Assembly (NCBI RefSeq): GCF_013116745.1
Contig: NZ_JABFOE010000001.1
Location: forward strand, 372,001 to 436,000
Direction: 5' to 3'
Length of the DNA: 64,000 nt
DNA from: Arthrobacter sp. 260
GTDB lineage: Bacteria; Actinomycetota; Actinomycetes; Actinomycetales; Micrococcaceae
The notes below the pieces were generated by a model. That model saw only the letters and a program-made list of their open reading frames with translations. It made no database searches and was not told where the DNA came from. Shown in pieces: positions 29 through 6,575 of the stretch. Position numbers and translations under genes: made by a program. Position 1 is the first letter of the stretch; every line of letters begins with the position of its first letter.

Positions 29-520
29 ATGGCCCAATACCGAGATCCCGGCCCCATCGAGTTCGACGCGGTTATCCAGCGCTCTGCTGTCATCGGTTCG
101 GCAGCGTACGTCGAGTTCCCGCACAGCGTGCCGGAAACCTTCGGCGCAAGCGGCCGCGTGCCGGTGATGGCGGCGTTCGACGGCGTCGGCTACCGCGGCT
201 CGCTGGTCACCTACGGCGACGCGCACCTGTTGCTGGTGCGTTCCGATGTGCAGGAAGAAATCGGGAAAGCCGCCGGCGACACGGTGCGGGTGTCCCTCAC
301 TCTCGACACCAGTGAACGGGTAGTGGCCCTGGCCGACGACGTATCGGCGGCCCTCGTCGCGGGCGGCGAAGTGGATGCGTTCAGGGCACTGTCCTACTCC
401 CGCCAGCGCGAGTACGCCCTGTGGATCGCGGCGGCCAAACGGCCAGCGACCAGGGAGGCGCGCATCCAACGGACGGTACAGCGCCTTGCGGAGGGCAAGG
501 CCAACCAGAAGCCGGGTTAG
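29..520 (+). CDS. YdeI/OmpD-associated family protein (DUF1905 type)
   Basis: 163-residue soluble protein. The first ~95 residues look like the DUF1905 beta-barrel domain (FDAVIQRS near the start, later VRVSLTLD), and the C-terminal third has the helical YdeI/OmpD-associated signature (ALSYSRQREYALWIAAAK). Members of this family have no firmly known biochemical role; some are annotated as bacteriocin-protection proteins. It has no signal peptide or membrane segment. The gene converges on the YbdK-type ligase gene and their stop codons overlap within 517-520 (TTAG). The window opens only 28 bases upstream, so its promoter and possible operon partners are not visible. The family call is from recognition of both domains. 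Confidence 0.8.
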   Translation: MAQYRDPGPIEFDAVIQRSAVIGSAAYVEFPHSVPETFGASGRVPVMAAFDGVGYRGSLVTYGDAHLLLVRSDVQEEIGKAAGDTVRVSLTLDTSERVVALADDVSAALVAGGEVDAFRALSYSRQREYALWIAAAKRPATREARIQRTVQRLAEGKANQKPG

Positions 521-1617
521 CGTTCGGCGGTGAGGGTTTCGCTGTACAGGGCCAGCAGCGCAGCCATTCCGCCGCTCTCCATCGCCCTGCGCTGCCGTTC
601 AGCGCCCGTTCCGCGCTCCCAGACCGTCGCCAGGCCAGCGGCGATCCAGTCGGCGTCGCCCTCCTTGTCGACGGCGTCAGAGGTGTAGCCCAGCAACCGG
701 TCCATCTGCTCACGTGCAGGAATGAGATCGCCCGTGGTGAGGTCCACCAGGTCTCCGGCAAGCCCGTGGCGGGCGGCCTGCCACATGGCCGCATCGAGCA
801 ACTCCGGGTCCGGATCCAGGAACGGCAGTCCAGCCTCCGCTTCCCGGATGGCCGTGGATACCAGCCCCCGGACCAGGGCCGCCTGCAACACCGAATCCTG
901 TGCCTCCAGCTGGGCGTCGCCGGCCCGCACCTCGAGGGTGGGATACGTGTCGGAGAGCCGCGCCATCCAGGTCAGCACGCCGCGGTCGATGATGACGCCG
1001 GTGGCCACCAGGCGTTCAATCCGTCGTTCGTAATCGGCGGCATCGGCGAACACCGGGGGGCAGCCCTGCACCGGCCACCGGCGGTAGTGCACCACCCGCC
1101 AGCTGGCGAAGCCGCTGTCCCGGTCCAGCCAGAACGGAGAATTGGTGCTCAGAGCGGTGATGACCGGGAGCCAGGGCCGGATCCGGTTCAGTGCCTGCAC
1201 CCCGGTTTCCTTGTCCGGGATGCCCACGTGCACATGCAGGCCGTTTACGAACTGGTCAGCGACAATCCCGCGGGCGCTCGCGCGGAGCTCGTGGTAGCGC
1301 TGCTTGTCGGTCAGCGTGGGGTATGCGGATTCGATCCGCGGGGCTGTCGCCGACCCGCTGGCGCGCACCCCGGCCTTCCGGGCCGCCGCGGAGATCCGCC
1401 GCCGGAAATGCAGCAAGGATTCCTCGGCCTCGGTGAGGGTGGCGCAGACCGGCGTCGCGGTTTCCAGCTGGCAGCTCAGGAGCTCGCGCTGGATGTCGTC
1501 GGCCTCGATCGTCGACGACTGCTCCAGTAACGCCTGCACCTCGTTGGCCTTATAGACGGGCAATCCCGACGTCGGGTCCAGCAGGAGGTACTCTTCTTCA
1601 ATCCCCAGCGTTGTCAT
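517..1617 (-). CDS. Carboxylate-amine ligase, glutamate-cysteine ligase 2 family (YbdK type)
   Basis: 366-residue cytosolic ATP-grasp-like ligase of the GCS2 family. YbdK relatives have weak glutamate-cysteine ligase activity; the real substrate here is unknown. Visible signatures are GIEEEYLL at residues 5-12, GLHVHVGI at about 126-133 (nucleotide/metal-binding strand) and NSPFW near 159, and the length is typical. An open frame continues upstream to 2304, but it runs over the divergent fluoride operon and has no family similarity; the ATG at 1617 leads directly into the conserved N-terminus. It is divergent from the fluoride operon, sharing its upstream region, and convergent with the YdeI-like gene. 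Confidence 0.9.
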   Translation of the reverse strand: MTTLGIEEEYLLLDPTSGLPVYKANEVQALLEQSSTIEADDIQRELLSCQLETATPVCATLTEAEESLLHFRRRISAAARKAGVRASGSATAPRIESAYPTLTDKQRYHELRASARGIVADQFVNGLHVHVGIPDKETGVQALNRIRPWLPVITALSTNSPFWLDRDSGFASWRVVHYRRWPVQGCPPVFADAADYERRIERLVATGVIIDRGVLTWMARLSDTYPTLEVRAGDAQLEAQDSVLQAALVRGLVSTAIREAEAGLPFLDPDPELLDAAMWQAARHGLAGDLVDLTTGDLIPAREQMDRLLGYTSDAVDKEGDADWIAAGLATVWERGTGAERQRRAMESGGMAALLALYSETLTAER

Positions 1618-1711
1618 GTAGTGATCATTGCATTTGTTGGCCGGTCGATAATACTGTGACGCGCTGCGGCCCCCGGGGATCCGGTGGACCAATCCGATAT
1701 AGTCGAGGCAA

Positions 1712-1768
1712 CGGCGATGGATCCCGCCTGGGCACTGCCCGAACCGCCACCAGGGCTGATGGTTCCTG
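1712..1768 (+). ncRNA. Fluoride riboswitch (crcB motif) aptamer
   Basis: The segment has the hallmark layout of fluoride aptamers: GGCGATG (1713-1719), CCGCC (1724-1728), ACTGCCC (1734-1740) and GGGCTGATGG (1753-1762). Pseudoknot strands GGCG 1713-1716 and CGCC 1725-1728 are complementary. P2 is GCCC 1737-1740 with GGGC 1753-1756. P1 is 1720-1724 with 1761-1765, with one U-U mismatch. The blocks CTGCCC...GGGCTGATGG match the Thermotoga aptamer as I remember it. Two fluoride-channel genes lie downstream, which is the expected regulon. Fluoride binding should turn expression on. Confidence 0.93.
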
Positions 1769-1791
1769 CCTTGACACTCACAAGAGGCAGG
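1765..1791 (+). promoter_or_regulatory. Riboswitch expression platform: RBS-sequestering hairpin
   Basis: CCTGCC (1765-1770) is perfectly complementary to GGCAGG (1786-1791), extended by T1771-A1785. The right arm contains the ribosome-binding site AGAGGCAGG of the GTG start at 1798. The left arm begins inside the 3' strand of aptamer P1 (1761-1765), so aptamer folding and RBS sequestration compete. This points to translational control, with the site exposed when fluoride is bound. The mechanism is inferred from base pairing only. Confidence 0.75.
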
Positions 1792-1797
1792 TGCACC

Positions 1798-2289
1798 GTG
1801 TCCACAGAGAATTCCGTTCGAGGCCCCCTCCTGGTCGGGGTGATGCCGGGGCAGGACCGGGCGGTTCTTGACACCGCCATCACCCTGGCGCAGGCCCTGC
1901 ACACCACTATCGCCTTCGTCTACGTCGATCCCGCCGGGTTCCGGGTGCAGGAGCCCGACGGCGGGGAGCGCTTCGCCTCGATTGACCCCGACGTCGAGGA
2001 CGACGACTCCCGGTCGGCTCACCTCAAATCCCTGATCAGCGCCGGGCTCGCCGACTCCGGGATTGGGTGGAGCTACCGGCTGGTCCGCGGCGAGGCCGCG
2101 GATGAGCTTGCCCAGGCGGCTAAGGCGGCCAGGGCATTCATGATCGTTGTGGGAGCGCGGCGGCAGACCGTGGCACGCCGCATGGAGAATCTCCTCACCG
2201 GGTCGGTGGCCGCCCACCTCGCGCATCATCAGCCGACGCCCGTCCTGGTGGTGCCCGCTGCCTCCTCCCGGGCGCGGGGCGGGCGCTGA
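1798..2289 (+). CDS. Universal stress protein, first gene of the fluoride operon
   Basis: 163-residue single-domain UspA-type protein. It begins with the alpha/beta strand LLVGVMPG and ends with the ATP-binding type signature GARRQTVARRMENLLTGSVA followed by PVLVVP, fitting the G-x2-x-G-x9-G-S/T pattern loosely (GAR...TGS). The frame is open from 1684, but that stretch is the riboswitch; the GTG at 1798 has a good Shine-Dalgarno sequence (AGAGGCAGG, 6-nt spacing) that is itself in the switch hairpin, so I chose it. It overlaps the first crcB gene by one base (TGATG). The role is probably stress protection during fluoride exposure, inferred only from position. Confidence 0.87.
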   Translation: MSTENSVRGPLLVGVMPGQDRAVLDTAITLAQALHTTIAFVYVDPAGFRVQEPDGGERFASIDPDVEDDDSRSAHLKSLISAGLADSGIGWSYRLVRGEAADELAQAAKAARAFMIVVGARRQTVARRMENLLTGSVAAHLAHHQPTPVLVVPAASSRARGGR

Positions 2290-2786
2290 TGGCATCGCAT
2301 CCAACCGTTTCCAGTGCGACGACGCCGACGCCGGCCGAGCGGCGTCCCCACTGGCGGCCGGGCCTCATTCTCCTCGTCTTCGTCGGAGGAATGGCGGGAA
2401 CCCTGTGCAGGTACTGGCTGGAGGGGGTCGTCCCCAGGCCGTTGGGACTCCCGGTGCCCACCCTGGCCATCAACCTTCTCGGGGCCTTCCTGCTGGGCCT
2501 GTTGCTGGAAGCGCTCCTGCGTGCTGGACCGGACCAAGGGAAACTCCGGTCCGCCCGACTGCTCCTCGGCACCGGGCTGCTCGGCGGTTTCACCACCTAC
2601 AGCACGTTCGCGGTCGAGGCGGTCGCTTTGGGGATCGACGGCGATGCCGGGTGGGCGGCCCTGTATGTAGTCATCAGCCTGATCGGCGGGGTCCTGTTGA
2701 GCTTTGCGGGGATCGCCCTGGCGTCAGCCCTGCACCGGCGCGGCGCGGGCCGGCCGCGCTCCGGCGAGGGCGGAGTTACCCGATGA
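2289..2786 (+). CDS. crcB: Fluoride efflux channel subunit CrcB/Fluc (first paralogue)
   Basis: 165-residue membrane protein with four hydrophobic helices, exporting fluoride passively through a dual-topology channel. Signatures are INLLGAFLLG at residues 61-70 (conserved pore Asn) and GGFTTYSTF at 99-107 (Phe box and TTxST sodium-site break). The ~25-residue polar N-terminal extension is longer than in most Fluc proteins. It starts within the stop of the stress-protein gene and overlaps the next gene by 4 bases (ATGA), so it is translated with both. Actinobacteria and many Firmicutes encode two unequal subunits that assemble as a heterodimer; the adjacent second copy fits this. Confidence 0.95.
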   Translation: MASHPTVSSATTPTPAERRPHWRPGLILLVFVGGMAGTLCRYWLEGVVPRPLGLPVPTLAINLLGAFLLGLLLEALLRAGPDQGKLRSARLLLGTGLLGGFTTYSTFAVEAVALGIDGDAGWAALYVVISLIGGVLLSFAGIALASALHRRGAGRPRSGEGGVTR

Positions 2787-3169
2787 GTGTGCTTCTGGTA
2801 CTGCTGGTGGGTGCGGCTGGAGGGTTGGGGGCGGTGACCCGATTCATGCTCGACGGCGTGGTGAGGTCACGGTTCCGGACAGCCATCCCGTGGGGGACCG
2901 TGGCGATCAACGTGGTCGGTTCGGGGCTGCTCGGGCTCCTGGCCGGGCTGGGCCTGGCGGGCGGCATCCCGCCCGCTACCGAGGTGATTGCCGGCGTCGG
3001 ATTCCTGGGCGGGTTCACCACGTTCAGCACCGCCAGCGTGGAAACCGTGAGGCTGCTGCAGAGCGGACGGGTGGGTCGTGGCCTGATTAATGCGGTGGGT
3101 ACCGCCGCCCTGGCGCTTCTCGCCGCCGGGGCCGGGGTCGCCGTCGGAACCCTCCTCGCCGCTGCCTGA
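2783..3169 (+). CDS. crcB: Fluoride efflux channel subunit CrcB/Fluc (second paralogue)
   Basis: 128-residue, four-helix Fluc subunit starting at ATG 2783, which overlaps the previous stop (ATGA). Signatures are AINVVGSGLLG at residues 41-51 and GGFTTFSTAS at 76-85. It lacks the N-terminal extension of its neighbour and the two sequences differ strongly, which is typical of heterodimeric Fluc pairs in which the subunits insert in opposite orientations. The longer open frame upstream of 2783 is a shadow of the first crcB. It ends 18 bases from the stop of the convergent mntR gene. It should be controlled by the fluoride riboswitch through the whole operon. Confidence 0.95.
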   Translation: MSVLLVLLVGAAGGLGAVTRFMLDGVVRSRFRTAIPWGTVAINVVGSGLLGLLAGLGLAGGIPPATEVIAGVGFLGGFTTFSTASVETVRLLQSGRVGRGLINAVGTAALALLAAGAGVAVGTLLAAA

Positions 3170-3187
3170 CGCACTGTCCCTGGGCTA

Positions 3188-3925
3188 CTACCGGGCGGGT
3201 TCTGGAAGCCTGCAGCCGGTGTGGGTTCCGTCCGTCTCGATCCAGAGGGCCTGGGTCAGCTCCTCGCCGAAGTCGTAGGTCCTCGCGTCGGCTGTCCCAC
3301 CCACGGCAACCACCAGGGGGCCACCGAAGGGTTTACGCTCCACCACGCGGACCGGTGTGTCCAGGTCGATGGATTCCGAGGCGAGGAACCGCAGCAGGTC
3401 TGGGTTCGCGTCGCTGATCCGCGTGATCCGTCCGGGGTGGCCGTCGTCGAGATCCTGTAGCAGGTGAGCGGCAGGCAGGGTGATTCTTCCGTCAGCGGTG
3501 GGAATGGGATCCCCATGCGGGTCACGGGTGGGATGGGAGAGTTTCCGGTCCAGCCGTTCGATGAAGGTGTCGGAGACCGTGTGCTCGAGCAGCTCGGCCT
3601 CGTCATGTACCTCGTCCCAGCTGTAGCCCAGCTCGCTGACCAAAAAGGTTTCCAGGAGCCGGTGCCGGCGCACCATCGCCAGGGCCAGCTGCCGCCCGTC
3701 ACCCGTCAGCTCCACCGCGCCGTAGGGCTCGTGGTGGGCAAGGCCCAGATCCCTGAGCTTGCGCACCATCTCCGAGACGGAGGAGTTGGCCACCGACAAT
3801 CGGGCGGCCAGCTGTGAGGCGGTGACTGGGCGATTGTGCCATTCAGTGAACGAGTAGATGACCTTTACATAGTCCTGCACGCTGGAGGACCCGGCGCTCA
3901 GGGTGGCGGCGGTGCGTTTGGCCAT
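3188..3925 (-). CDS. mntR: DtxR/MntR-family metal-dependent transcriptional repressor
   Basis: 245-residue repressor. Residues ~15-75 form the winged helix-turn-helix (TASQLAARLSVANSSVSEMV recognition helix), followed by a metal-binding dimerisation region (MVRRHRLLETFL, then DEVHDEAELLEHTVSD) with the His/Glu/Asp ligands of the DtxR family, and a C-terminal SH3-like FeoA domain (about residues 165-240). It is the last gene of the metal ABC operon, only 3 bases after the permease gene. Location favours a manganese sensor that represses this importer when the cell is replete; iron sensing (IdeR) is less likely but cannot be excluded. Candidate binding sites lie before the operon at 6566-6602. 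Confidence 0.88.
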   Translation of the reverse strand: MAKRTAATLSAGSSSVQDYVKVIYSFTEWHNRPVTASQLAARLSVANSSVSEMVRKLRDLGLAHHEPYGAVELTGDGRQLALAMVRRHRLLETFLVSELGYSWDEVHDEAELLEHTVSDTFIERLDRKLSHPTRDPHGDPIPTADGRITLPAAHLLQDLDDGHPGRITRISDANPDLLRFLASESIDLDTPVRVVERKPFGGPLVVAVGGTADARTYDFGEELTQALWIETDGTHTGCRLPEPAR

Positions 3926-3928
3926 GGG

Positions 3929-4846
3929 TCAGGCCCTTCCTGTCGGTTGCAGACTGGCCGGTTTCCCGACGTCGTCCGGCGGGGTGGTCCGGCGCAGCCG
4001 ACGCCGGGTGACGGCCTGCCAGATGATCCCCGTCCGGCGGGCAAATAGGTAGACGAGCACAAAGACGAGCGACTGGGACAGGACCACTGCCGCGCCCGTC
4101 GAGATATCCAGGTAGTAGCTGGCGTAGATTCCGGCCACCGACGCCACAGTGGTGATGCTCGCGGCGAGGATCAGCATCAGGTCGAAGCTGCGGGTCAGCA
4201 GGAACGCCGTCGCCCCGGGGGTGATGAGCATGGCCACCACCAGGATGATGCCGACCGCCTGCAGCCCGACGACGACGCTGAGCGCCATCAGGCCCAGCAG
4301 GAGTGTGGACAGCGCCCGGGTGTTCAGCCCGATCACGTGGGCGTGGGTGCGGTCAAAGGCGAACAGGGTCAGGTCCCGGCGTTTGTACAACACGACGGCG
4401 AGGGTCAGCGCGCCGAGGATGACCACCTGCCAGAGTTCACCGTCTGTCACACCCAGGACGTTGCCGAAGAGGATATGCATGAGGTCCACCTGGGACGGGG
4501 TCCGGGACACGATCGCCAGCCCGACCGCGAACAATCCGGTGAAGACGACGCCGATCACCGTGTCCGACTTCAGCTTGGTCGTCGATTTCACCACACCGAT
4601 CAGGGCGACGGCTCCCGCACCGAAGACGAACGCGCCGATCGAGAACGGGATCCCGATGATGTAGGCCAGGGCGACCCCCGGCAGGACGGCGTGCGAGACG
4701 GCGTCGCCCATCAGCGACCAGCCCATCAGGATCAGCCAGCAGGAGAGCACCGACGCGACTACCGCCGCGCACACCGTGACCACCAGGGCGCGGGTGAGAA
4801 AGCCATACTGCAACGGCTCGGTCAGGAAGGACAGGAATTCCATCAC
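3929..4846 (-). CDS. mntB: Metal (manganese-type) ABC transporter permease
   Basis: 305-residue integral membrane protein of the ABC-3 family (ZnuB/MntB/SitC-like) with about eight to nine hydrophobic helices. Typical elements are SHAVLPGVALAYIIGIPF near residue 50 and VVGLQAVGIILVVAMLITPG in the conserved cytoplasmic coupling region. It forms the transmembrane channel with the ATPase encoded just upstream; the start overlaps that gene's stop by 4 bases. The polar tail after the last helix (ARRTGIIWQAVTRRR onward) is cytosolic. Manganese rather than zinc specificity is inferred from the mntR neighbour and from the separate zinc system at 25.9-28.6 kb. Confidence 0.88.
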   Translation of the reverse strand: MMEFLSFLTEPLQYGFLTRALVVTVCAAVVASVLSCWLILMGWSLMGDAVSHAVLPGVALAYIIGIPFSIGAFVFGAGAVALIGVVKSTTKLKSDTVIGVVFTGLFAVGLAIVSRTPSQVDLMHILFGNVLGVTDGELWQVVILGALTLAVVLYKRRDLTLFAFDRTHAHVIGLNTRALSTLLLGLMALSVVVGLQAVGIILVVAMLITPGATAFLLTRSFDLMLILAASITTVASVAGIYASYYLDISTGAAVVLSQSLVFVLVYLFARRTGIIWQAVTRRRLRRTTPPDDVGKPASLQPTGRA

Positions 4847-5670
4847 TGCTCCTGGTTTTGCTCGGCGGCCGGGGCGGGACGGCGCGGGTCGGGCCCGGCC
4901 GCGGGAAGCGGCCCGAACGCGAGGGCCAGCTTTTCGTGGGTCAGCACCTCGGCGGGGGGGCCATGGGCAAGGACCCGGTTATGCAGGAGTACCGCCTCGT
5001 CGCAGAGCTCGGGGATCCCCGCGAGGTCGTGGGTGGAGATCAGCGCCGTCCGTCCCTCGTCCCGGAGCTCCTGGAGCAGGCTGATCAACGTGGCTTCGCT
5101 GGACTTGTCCACCCCGGCGAACGGCTCATCCAGGAGGAGCAGCTGGGCGTCCTGGGCGATGCTCCGGGCGACGAACGCACGCTTTTTCTGCCCGCCGGAA
5201 AGCTCACCGATCTGCCGTCCCCGCTGGGCGGTCAGCCCCACCCGGTCCAGTGCCTCGTCGACAGCGTCCCGGTCGGCACGGCTGGCGCGGCGGGACGGCC
5301 CCATCCGCCCGTACCGGCCCATCAGGACCACGTCCTGTACCGAAAGGGGGAAGGTCCAGTCAACATCCTCCGACTGGGGGACATAGGCCACCAGGTTGGT
5401 GCGCCGCGCGGTGCGGTGATCCTTGCCGAACAGAGCCACCGTTCCCACGGAGGGCTGGACCAGGCCCATCAGGCACTTGAAGAGTGTTGACTTGCCTGAG
5501 CCGTTGACACCGATCAGACCGCAGATTCTGGCCCGCTCGACAGTCAGATCGACGTCGATCAGCGCCCGTACCTCGTTGTAGCTCACACTGAGTCCGGACA
5601 CGGAGAGGGCGGCCACCCGGTCATGGTCACCGGGCGCCGGCGCGGGATGTGTGGGGGCGTACCAGCTCAT
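4843..5670 (-). CDS. mntA: Metal (manganese-type) ABC transporter ATP-binding protein
   Basis: 275-residue ABC ATPase. Walker A is GVNGSGKST, the Q-loop is VPQSEDVDWTFP (the DWxFP pattern is common in Mn-type importers), the signature is LSGGQKKR, Walker B is LLLLDEPFAG and the H-loop is STHD. About 20 extra residues precede the first beta strand. It hydrolyses ATP to drive uptake through the permease encoded next. Both ends overlap neighbouring genes by 4 bases (5667-5670 and 4843-4846), so substrate-binding protein, ATPase, permease and repressor form one transcription unit. The C-terminal tail is Ala/Pro-rich and probably unstructured. Confidence 0.88.
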   Translation of the reverse strand: MSWYAPTHPAPAPGDHDRVAALSVSGLSVSYNEVRALIDVDLTVERARICGLIGVNGSGKSTLFKCLMGLVQPSVGTVALFGKDHRTARRTNLVAYVPQSEDVDWTFPLSVQDVVLMGRYGRMGPSRRASRADRDAVDEALDRVGLTAQRGRQIGELSGGQKKRAFVARSIAQDAQLLLLDEPFAGVDKSSEATLISLLQELRDEGRTALISTHDLAGIPELCDEAVLLHNRVLAHGPPAEVLTHEKLALAFGPLPAAGPDPRRPAPAAEQNQEQ

Positions 5671-6575
5671 GGGGCGAGTCCTTCGGTGATCAGGGCAATG
5701 TCGTAGCGCAGGAGGTCGAGGAAGGTGGGTACCGGGCCGTCCGGTCCCGAGAGCGAATCGACATACAGGGGCTCCGACAGGTCCGCCCCGGTGGCCAGCG
5801 CCACCTGTTCCTGCGCTGAGGGGTTCACCGTCGATTCGCAGAACACCGTGGGCACCTCGTTGGCCTCGACGAAACCGATAACCTCCTTGATCTGCCGGGG
5901 AGTGCCCTCGGCGTCGGAGTTGACCGGCCAGATGAACGCCTCGTCGAGACCCGCGTCCCGCGCCAGGTAGGAGAAGGCGCCCTCGCAGGTAACCAGGGCG
6001 GGTGTGCCGCCGTCGGCGAACGCAGCTTCAAGATCGTCGAGCATTCCCTGCAGCTCGGCCTTGATCCGCCCACCGTTCGCCTCGAAGTCCCCGGCGTGGG
6101 CGGGATCGAGGTCGGTGAGCGCCGCAACGATGTTGTCCACATAGGTCTGTGCGGCGCGGGGCGACATCCAGGCGTGCGGGTTGGCCAGCCCACTGTAGTT
6201 GCCGGACCGGATATCGACCGGTTCCACGCCCTCGGACAGCACGGCGTGTGGAGCGTCAACGGAGAGTAGGAACCGCTCGAACCACCGTTCAAGACCGAGG
6301 CCGTTGTCCAGGATCAGGTCGGCATCCTGCGCATTCACGAGGTCCGAAGGGGTGGGATCGTAGCCGTGGATCTCCGCGCCGACCTTGGTGATGGACTCGA
6401 CCCGGACGTGCCCTCCACCGACCTGGTCGGCGAGATCGGCGAGAACGGTAAAGGTGGTCAGCACCATGGGGCGTTCATCGTCGCCGGCCGGCCGCGCCTG
6501 GGCCGCCGGACTGGCGCCACAGCCAGCGACCGCCAGCAGCGTCGCCAGCACCAGCGGAAGACAATATTTCGGCAT
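5667..6575 (-). CDS. mntC: Metal ABC transporter substrate-binding lipoprotein (manganese/zinc family A-1)
   Basis: 302-residue surface lipoprotein. A short signal peptide ends at the lipobox LAVAGC (Cys19). The mature part is a cluster A-1 (ZnuA/PsaA-type) binding protein: IHGYDPTPSD (first ligand His), NPHAWMSPR (second His), a Glu in the FCESTVNPS segment and an Asp near the C-terminus (YVDSLS). It lacks the His-rich loop seen in the zinc-binding protein at 25890, supporting manganese. The ATG sits inside an operator-like palindrome and has no good Shine-Dalgarno sequence; TAGATT lies 5 nt upstream, so a leaderless or nearly leaderless mRNA is possible. First gene of the operon. Confidence 0.88.
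   Translation of the reverse strand: MPKYCLPLVLATLLAVAGCGASPAAQARPAGDDERPMVLTTFTVLADLADQVGGGHVRVESITKVGAEIHGYDPTPSDLVNAQDADLILDNGLGLERWFERFLLSVDAPHAVLSEGVEPVDIRSGNYSGLANPHAWMSPRAAQTYVDNIVAALTDLDPAHAGDFEANGGRIKAELQGMLDDLEAAFADGGTPALVTCEGAFSYLARDAGLDEAFIWPVNSDAEGTPRQIKEVIGFVEANEVPTVFCESTVNPSAQEQVALATGADLSEPLYVDSLSGPDGPVPTFLDLLRYDIALITEGLAP

Follow-up and report, generated by a model that had tools for sequence, protein, structure and literature searches.

A fluoride riboswitch with a predicted translational platform precedes a universal stress protein gene and two fluoride channel genes in Arthrobacter sp. 260

Universal stress proteins (Usp) are reportedly among the fluoride-riboswitch genes listed by Baker et al. 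in 2012. In Enterobacter cloacae FRM, a 2017 report places a fluoride riboswitch before ppaC-uspA-eno-gpmA-crcB-orf5249, with uspA transcripts up 120-fold in response to fluoride; even with uspA, crcB, or both missing, strains grew at 1,000 mg/L and had a MIC of 3,000 mg/L (PMC5533749). Other genes reported with the motif include mutS and those for ion transport and formate hydrogen lyase (PMC2864571), and enolase and pyrophosphatase are described as fluoride-sensitive enzymes (PMC5971314, PMC5533749). In the Bacillus cereus riboswitch, an A40-U48 linchpin pair (PMC8752731; this type of pair is also described in PMC11586693) accompanies an intrinsic terminator (PMC8752731), and a translational fluoride riboswitch is mentioned for archaeal hyperthermophiles (PMC11077080). 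Given PMC5533749 and PMC11077080, the coupling of a Usp to fluoride and a translational fluoride switch are both ideas with precedents. Weinberg et al. 2010 do not use the phrase "universal stress" in their main text. Without claiming absence from print, we found no paper in our literature search on an actinobacterial USP-crcB fluoride operon, nor did the search return the protein group that we name USP-F in the present analysis, its recurrent first place, or a linchpin strand acting as anti-Shine-Dalgarno (anti-SD) sequence.

Here we analyze a locus within a window of 64,000 nucleotides (the whole stretch of DNA under study) from Arthrobacter sp. 260. Like the E. cloacae operon, in which induction was measured, the locus has a fluoride riboswitch at the head of an operon containing a Usp gene and crcB. 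However, the E. cloacae operon is gammaproteobacterial, with ppaC first, uspA second, and a single crcB, whereas the window carries a USP gene and two crcB genes in place of the ppaC, uspA, eno, gpmA, crcB series. The riboswitch resembles those of B. cereus and Thermotoga petrophila in aptamer sequence, P1, pseudoknot, A40-U48-type linchpin, and an expression platform that overlaps a pseudoknot strand, but the platform in the window buries a Shine-Dalgarno (SD) sequence where the B. cereus and T. petrophila types form a terminator. We put at roughly four in five the probability that a fluoride riboswitch with a translational ON platform here heads a three-gene, translationally coupled operon.

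Aptamer and operon genes

A cmscan search with the Rfam fluoride model RF01734 matched the forward strand at 45.2 bits (E = 2.6e-9 over 64 kb), above the gathering cut-off of 34 bits, bearing out the view taken from the letters alone in an earlier note that the aptamer closely matches the crcB motif. This was the sole RF01734 match reported in the assembly at E ≤ 0.001. The individual elements (Table 1) lie where, we assume, the T. petrophila numbering puts them when mapped onto the window: P1 at 1713-1716/1725-1728, the pseudoknot at 1719-1724/1761-1766, and the linchpin at A1759-U1767. Across 70 leaders (11 of 81 were left out of this count), the six pseudoknot pairs form in 70, 70, 66, 15, 69, and 63 cases. 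The window forms five of the six, its mismatch (U1722/U1763) falling at the position that is paired in just 15 leaders, and both linchpin bases are present.

Table 1. Coordinates of the riboswitch and operon features in the window
Feature	Position	Strand	Remarks
-10-like hexamer TATAGT	1698-1703	+	Predicted transcript start about 1709-1711
Fluoride riboswitch aptamer core (RF01734)	1711-1767	+	Full model match 1704-1775
Aptamer hairpin P1	1713-1728	+	GGCG 1713-1716 / CGCC 1725-1728; Rfam alignment
Pseudoknot 5' strand GGAUCC in P1 loop	1719-1724	+	Rfam alignment; pairs checked across leaders
Pseudoknot 3' strand GGUUCC (1761-1766) and linchpin U1767	1761-1767	+	Linchpin partner A1759; common to OFF hairpin
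Anti-SD arm CCUGCCUU	1765-1772	+	Swap test, pair counts
SD region AGAGGCAGG	1783-1791	+	1784-1791 is 3' arm of OFF hairpin; sequence, fold
ACC, outer 3' arm of OFF hairpin	1795-1797	+	Abuts start codon; pairs with GGU 1761-1763
USP-F, universal stress protein, 163 aa	1798-2289	+	GTG start, TGA 2287-2289
crcB/fluc subunit 1	2289-2786	+	PF02537 92.8 bits; TIGR00494 82.5 bits (cut-off 80.45)
crcB/fluc subunit 2	2783-3169	+	PF02537 83.5 bits

The operon had been read as a stress protein gene followed by two Fluc channels, and profile searches agreed. PF00582 matched 1798-2286 at 60.3 bits against a curated cut-off of 24, and the product has the Usp fold, with structural matches to 4wny, 5ahw, 3qtb, and 1mjh. 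PF02537 matched 2289-2783 and 2783-3166, both above its cut-off of 32.9. These are the sole CrcB matches in the assembly and, as two adjacent CrcB genes, show nothing unusual relative to known dual-subunit CrcB/Fluc channels. The reading frames interlock: the USP stop and the ATG of subunit 1 have one base in common (TGATG, 2287-2291), and the two subunits overlap at ATGA (2783-2786). Of 69 crcB-linked rows, 57 were resolved and 12 were not; in 34 of the 57, the USP stop and the closest crcB start in frame overlap by 1 or 4 nt. The operon is flanked upstream by a divergent GCS2-family ligase gene (520-1617, reverse strand) and downstream by a convergent gene for a DtxR/MntR-type repressor (3188-3925, reverse strand; Pfam). 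In a reverse-strand stretch (3188-6575), the repressor gene is followed by an apparent ABC metal-uptake operon of permease, ATPase, and binding protein, as read from ORF translations alone.

An expression platform that overlaps the pseudoknot

The USP start codon is preceded by GCAGG (1787-1791) at a spacing of 6 nt. As the earlier note had proposed, the SD of the stress gene lies inside a hairpin: the structure spanning 1761-1797 buries AGAGGCAGG, with GGU 1761-1763 paired to ACC 1795-1797 and CCUGCCUU to GAGGCAGG at 1784-1791. The strand 1761-1772 serves both folds; this OFF state and the ligand-bound state are mutually exclusive. The OFF hairpin has a computed energy of -16.1 kcal/mol with its outer pairs and -12.6 for the inner 8 pairs, and withholding the bases of the pseudoknot and linchpin leaves a 5-pair stub of -5.9 kcal/mol. 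Folding 1710-1803 with a plain nested model yields the OFF hairpin. With the pseudoknot strands alone blocked, part of the SD re-pairs with aptamer bases, so in this fold the SD opens at most in part. We regard the mispairing as a limit of the nested model and a reason for caution.

The pairing was examined comparatively with a swap test on the 8-nt arm, which begins at the last two bases of the pseudoknot strand. From 81 leaders, the weak RF01734 hits L057 and L059-L063 and the duplicate L031 were left out, giving 74, of which 69 are distinct. The arm paired with its own region at a mean of 7.11 of 8 positions, compared with 6.09 for the regions of other leaders and 5.51 for base-shuffled ones, and 0 of 20,000 permutations of the 69 distinct leaders reached the observed mean by a statistic that ignores relatedness. 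Arm pairs include CCUGCCUU/AAGGUAGG, CCUACCUU/AAGGUAGG, CCUGUGAC/GUCACAGG, CCUGCACC/GGUGCAGG, and CCUGUCUC/GAGACAGG. Exceptions are L006, with a C/A mismatch in the helix, L009, whose own score is 6, and L021, L045, L070, L080, and L088, which score 5.5 or less with their own regions. Counted over 26 family-type leaders, 94.6% of the 12-pair OFF helix is paired, versus 33.3 to 59.0% when one strand is slid by 1 to 3 columns; two of the four pairs at its outer end are broken, in 9 and 5 leaders respectively (alignment A2). Within the family set, a single base pair shows two-sided changes (6 cells, matched by 17 of 500 shuffles); the covariation score was reached by 8 of 500 shuffles and the number of two-sided pairs by 262 of 500. 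With just one two-sided pair in the family, the strong pairing signal therefore comes from the wider order. An SD helix that excludes the ligand-bound fold and has this comparative backing points to a translational platform, the mechanism originally suggested, with the swap test and the conservation of the 12-pair helix both in its favor.

The anti-SD arm had further been said to overlap P1. The overlap holds, but with the 3' strand of the pseudoknot and U1767; if by P1 was meant an outer stem pairing GAGGCA (1705-1710) with UGCCUU (1767-1772), that part fell. The outer stem was rejected on a swap test, in which its arms paired with their own partners at a mean of 3.73 versus 3.86 for permuted ones (4,909 of 5,000 permutations as good; 63 distinct leaders among 70), and on the position of the -10-like hexamer. 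Since its 5' arm starts just after the hexamer, which places the transcript start near the end of that arm, the arm is probably not transcribed whole. TANNNT sequences occur 64 times 12 to 16 nt before P1, over five positions in 71 leaders, of which any one may count twice; the upstream background is about 0.37 per position. A simple scan of 1500-3400 found no full sigma-70 promoter. The outer stem appears to be a coincidence of the window sequence.

Platforms of other kinds were seen among the leaders. In L067, L071, L082, L084, L085, and L029, the hairpin CCUGUGAC-GAGAGGA-GUCACAGG, its last arm variable, holds the SD-like GAGAGGA in its loop, and the first G of the GUG closes the 3' arm; in this group the start codon may be the buried element. 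In L039, L041, L043-L046, and L066, a GGGCAG arm has two possible partners, the preceding strand and a following CUGCCC, an arrangement suggestive of alternative, mutually exclusive hairpins upstream of an SD that lies further away. Together the leaders offer a natural series of putative translational fluoride switches whose anti-SD would be the linchpin strand itself.

Gene order, linkage, and the USP-F clade

We searched for RF01734 at three levels: the genus (38 genomes, 6 matching), the family (395 genomes, 36 matching, 28 of them above the cut-off), and the order (396 genomes, 38 matching, 20 above the cut-off). For the 30 over-threshold riboswitches of the family sample, the first recognized gene is USP in 19, CrcB in 2, and something else in 9, where the 19 include the truncated L005 as well as L003 and L026, whose USP frames start about 220 nt past the aptamer, and the 9 include L018, which runs into a contig end. 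The order sample adds 18 over-threshold riboswitches, excluding two already counted in the family set; of these, 8 are USP-first, 9 CrcB-first, and 1 other. By Pfam, in a check that takes in some sub-threshold hits, the other first genes are of histidine-phosphatase type (L007, L083), carry MutS domain V (L052, L053, L084, L029), or encode MFS proteins (L049, L051), with L048 and L050 falling in no Pfam family. The stress-gene-first order, which the earlier note had put forward for the window, is present there and recurs in other Micrococcaceae, but it is common in both samples and not special to this stretch. Within the genus the USP occurs in three states: full in the window, G012, and G028; a short remnant in G015 (locus L005); and none in G024 and G016, where riboswitch and crcB stand without it (L002, L004). 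In L005 (about 1596-1781), the USP, read from the equivalent GTG, is cut to about 61 aa with the overlap onto the crcB start kept, apparently a natural loss of the protein that preserves the stop/start overlap.

Linkage was scored over 111 tree rows, a set biased in that many loci were fetched by riboswitch and some rows stop at the locus edge (e.g., L050): by label, 33 carry both riboswitch and crcB, 36 only crcB ("crcB alone"), 3 only a riboswitch, and 39 neither of the two, with 12 of these 39 falling outside USP-F. Riboswitch labels here come from a text pattern within 600 bases upstream, not from a covariance model, and miss more distant riboswitches, so "crcB alone" includes operons under a more distant one. 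In L048, for example, the aptamer is followed by a phosphatase-type gene and then by USP-crcB about 2 kb downstream, and G160 and G199 are arranged likewise, by position. Loci drawn by protein numbered 77 (mostly stretches of 3.5 to 5.5 kb, a few shorter at contig ends), and 47 of them also contain a CrcB match. Among the family hits, these are 26 of the best 30 and 13 of 20 with middling scores that were picked by hand; among class loci, 8 of 27. In the class sample, 20 of 30 loci have neither crcB nor riboswitch; a single genus accounts for ten of these 20, and seven have scores below 90 bits. An Rfam recheck of twenty loci found RF01734 above the cut-off in none. These counts indicate a strong linkage among close relatives of the window that loosens with distance, and exclusive linkage of USP-F to fluoride genes was rejected.

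The two associations also come apart. In G098 (L160), G218 (L163), and G371 (L158), USP-F stands beside crcB with no RF01734 above the cut-off in 5.5 kb, and these genomes are absent from the 36 matching family genomes; they best show true absence of the riboswitch. In two Luteimicrobium loci, USP-F lies behind an aptamer and has no adjacent crcB (L033, 30.3 bits; L035, 34.0 bits); the scores are at or just under the cut-off, and neither aptamer was listed in the run at the gathering threshold. In G181, USP-F follows an aptamer above the cut-off (37.9 bits), and the 1.5 kb after it contain no crcB. The two Luteimicrobium loci appear to be the most telling, and such candidate aptamer-USP-F units weaken the idea of the USP as a mere passenger of crcB regulation. 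Pfam scans around six unlinked copies (L032, L034, L130, L159, L168, L176) revealed no common theme among nearby genes, which encode FMN oxidoreductase, histidine kinase, FUSC-like, short-chain dehydrogenase, ABC transporter, DUF6766, LssY_C, and Lon_C/PDZ proteins.

USP-F appears to be a distinct clade within Usp, a little-described subfamily often found beside fluoride-channel genes. On the tree, 99 of 111 rows form one starred clade, separate from the six other Usp rows of the assembly. A USP-F profile gave the window protein 198.7 bits, a score partly by construction because the profile includes it; the next-best Usp in that assembly scored 30.8. Relative to known Usp (PF00582), the clade has its own conserved residues: P17 in a (V/M)PGQ loop, D44, D65, Q145, and P148, in an alignment reduced from 37 to 34 sequences by leaving out two duplicates and the truncated L005. 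The ATP-binding class of Usp carries the motif G-2x-G-9x-G(S/T). At the aligned column, its second glycine is present in 1 of 34 USP-F sequences, and in the window protein the first and third glycines are 16 apart; the protein does not have the class motif but may still bind nucleotides. No NCBIfam family matched it at E ≤ 0.01, and tblastn against plasmids gave 19 matching records, all from actinobacterial genera. A separate Usp clade found next to crcB, in some genomes even where no riboswitch was detected, looks new.

Proposed mechanism and alternatives

Without fluoride, 1761-1772 would pair with the SD region and with the ACC before the start codon and so bury the ribosome site of the USP. 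Fluoride-Mg would lock the pseudoknot (1719-1724 with 1761-1766) and the A1759-U1767 pair, removing the outer pairs and the three SD-proximal pairs; a weak 5-bp stub would remain, and the freed SD would let ribosomes start at GTG 1798. Very probably, then, fluoride binding opens a ribosome site common to the USP and the two channel genes: given the overlaps of the USP stop with the crcB start and of crcB with crcB, opening of the USP site should raise both channel subunits. We infer the fluoride response, the direction of switching, and the strength of the coupling from sequence.

The switch could instead act at transcription, as the B. cereus riboswitch does, with the hairpin forming a terminator or Rho site, or working together with one, and burial of the SD being secondary; untranslated actinobacterial mRNA can be open to Rho. 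However, a consensus scan of 1500-3400 detected no terminator-like site, on which ground an intrinsic terminator was rejected, no U run follows the hairpin, and the 3' arm of the family-type hairpin is a purine-rich, SD-like stretch a few bases before the start codon, all of which make control at transcription unlikely. Far less probable still is that the USP starts upstream at ATG 1717, in frame with GTG 1798, so that the "aptamer" is partly coding and the SD hairpin coincidental. The frame is indeed open from 1684, but relatives carry the same aptamer before unrelated first genes (histidine-phosphatase, MutS-like, MFS, CrcB), and the predicted transcript start leaves no room for an SD before ATG 1717. 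Translational control at GTG 1798 remains our preferred reading. A separate alternative concerns the protein: USP-F might be no more than an inexpensive leading cistron through which translation of the crcB pair is coupled to the riboswitch, with no role in fluoride defense. Such a role would suit the overlapping stop and start codons and the losses within the genus, but we find it doubtful, since the subfamily residues are conserved across 34 sequences, aptamers precede USP-F without an adjacent crcB in Luteimicrobium and G181, and the E. cloacae fluoride operon likewise includes uspA.

USP-F is instead probably a working part of the fluoride response and more than a leader cistron. What that part might be we can only guess, one candidate being an effector whose remodeled Usp pocket would hold a nucleotide or a phosphate ligand. 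Put more fully, and tentatively, it is possible that USP-F is a dedicated fluoride-response protein of Actinomycetota, its nucleotide pocket remodeled (PGQ loop, second glycine lost), which senses or buffers a fluoride-specific lesion and has been recruited under fluoride riboswitches and beside crcB pairs with no detected riboswitch. On this tentative reading, the lesion could be, for example, a fluoro-metal-nucleotide complex or a build-up of phosphate esters after inhibition of enolase or pyrophosphatase. Why stress proteins occur in fluoride regulons becomes a question testable in benign soil bacteria with a Usp subfamily that recurs with crcB, the more so as the Luteimicrobium USP-F appears to have an aptamer to itself.

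Several individual loci differ in their aptamers or first genes. In L133 (1407-1454), at the same place as in L080, an aptamer lies between USP-F and crcB and not before USP-F. Contigs C37 and C16 of G111 (L018, L048, L049) hold four aptamer matches with different gene types downstream. The first genes after the aptamer in L048 (2054-2926, 291 aa) and L050 (3062-3991, 310 aa) encode proteins that start alike (SAEEV and SVEEV) and have no Pfam match at E ≤ 0.001. In L035 (Luteimicrobium xylanilyticum), where enolase and inorganic pyrophosphatase genes are close by, two further weak matches accompany the one before USP-F, so that three lie within 3 kb: at 2827-2900 (forward, 34.0 bits) before USP-F, at 5272-5372 (reverse, 26.1 bits) towards the enolase gene, and at 5557-5664 (forward, 31.1 bits) before an ORF at 5670.
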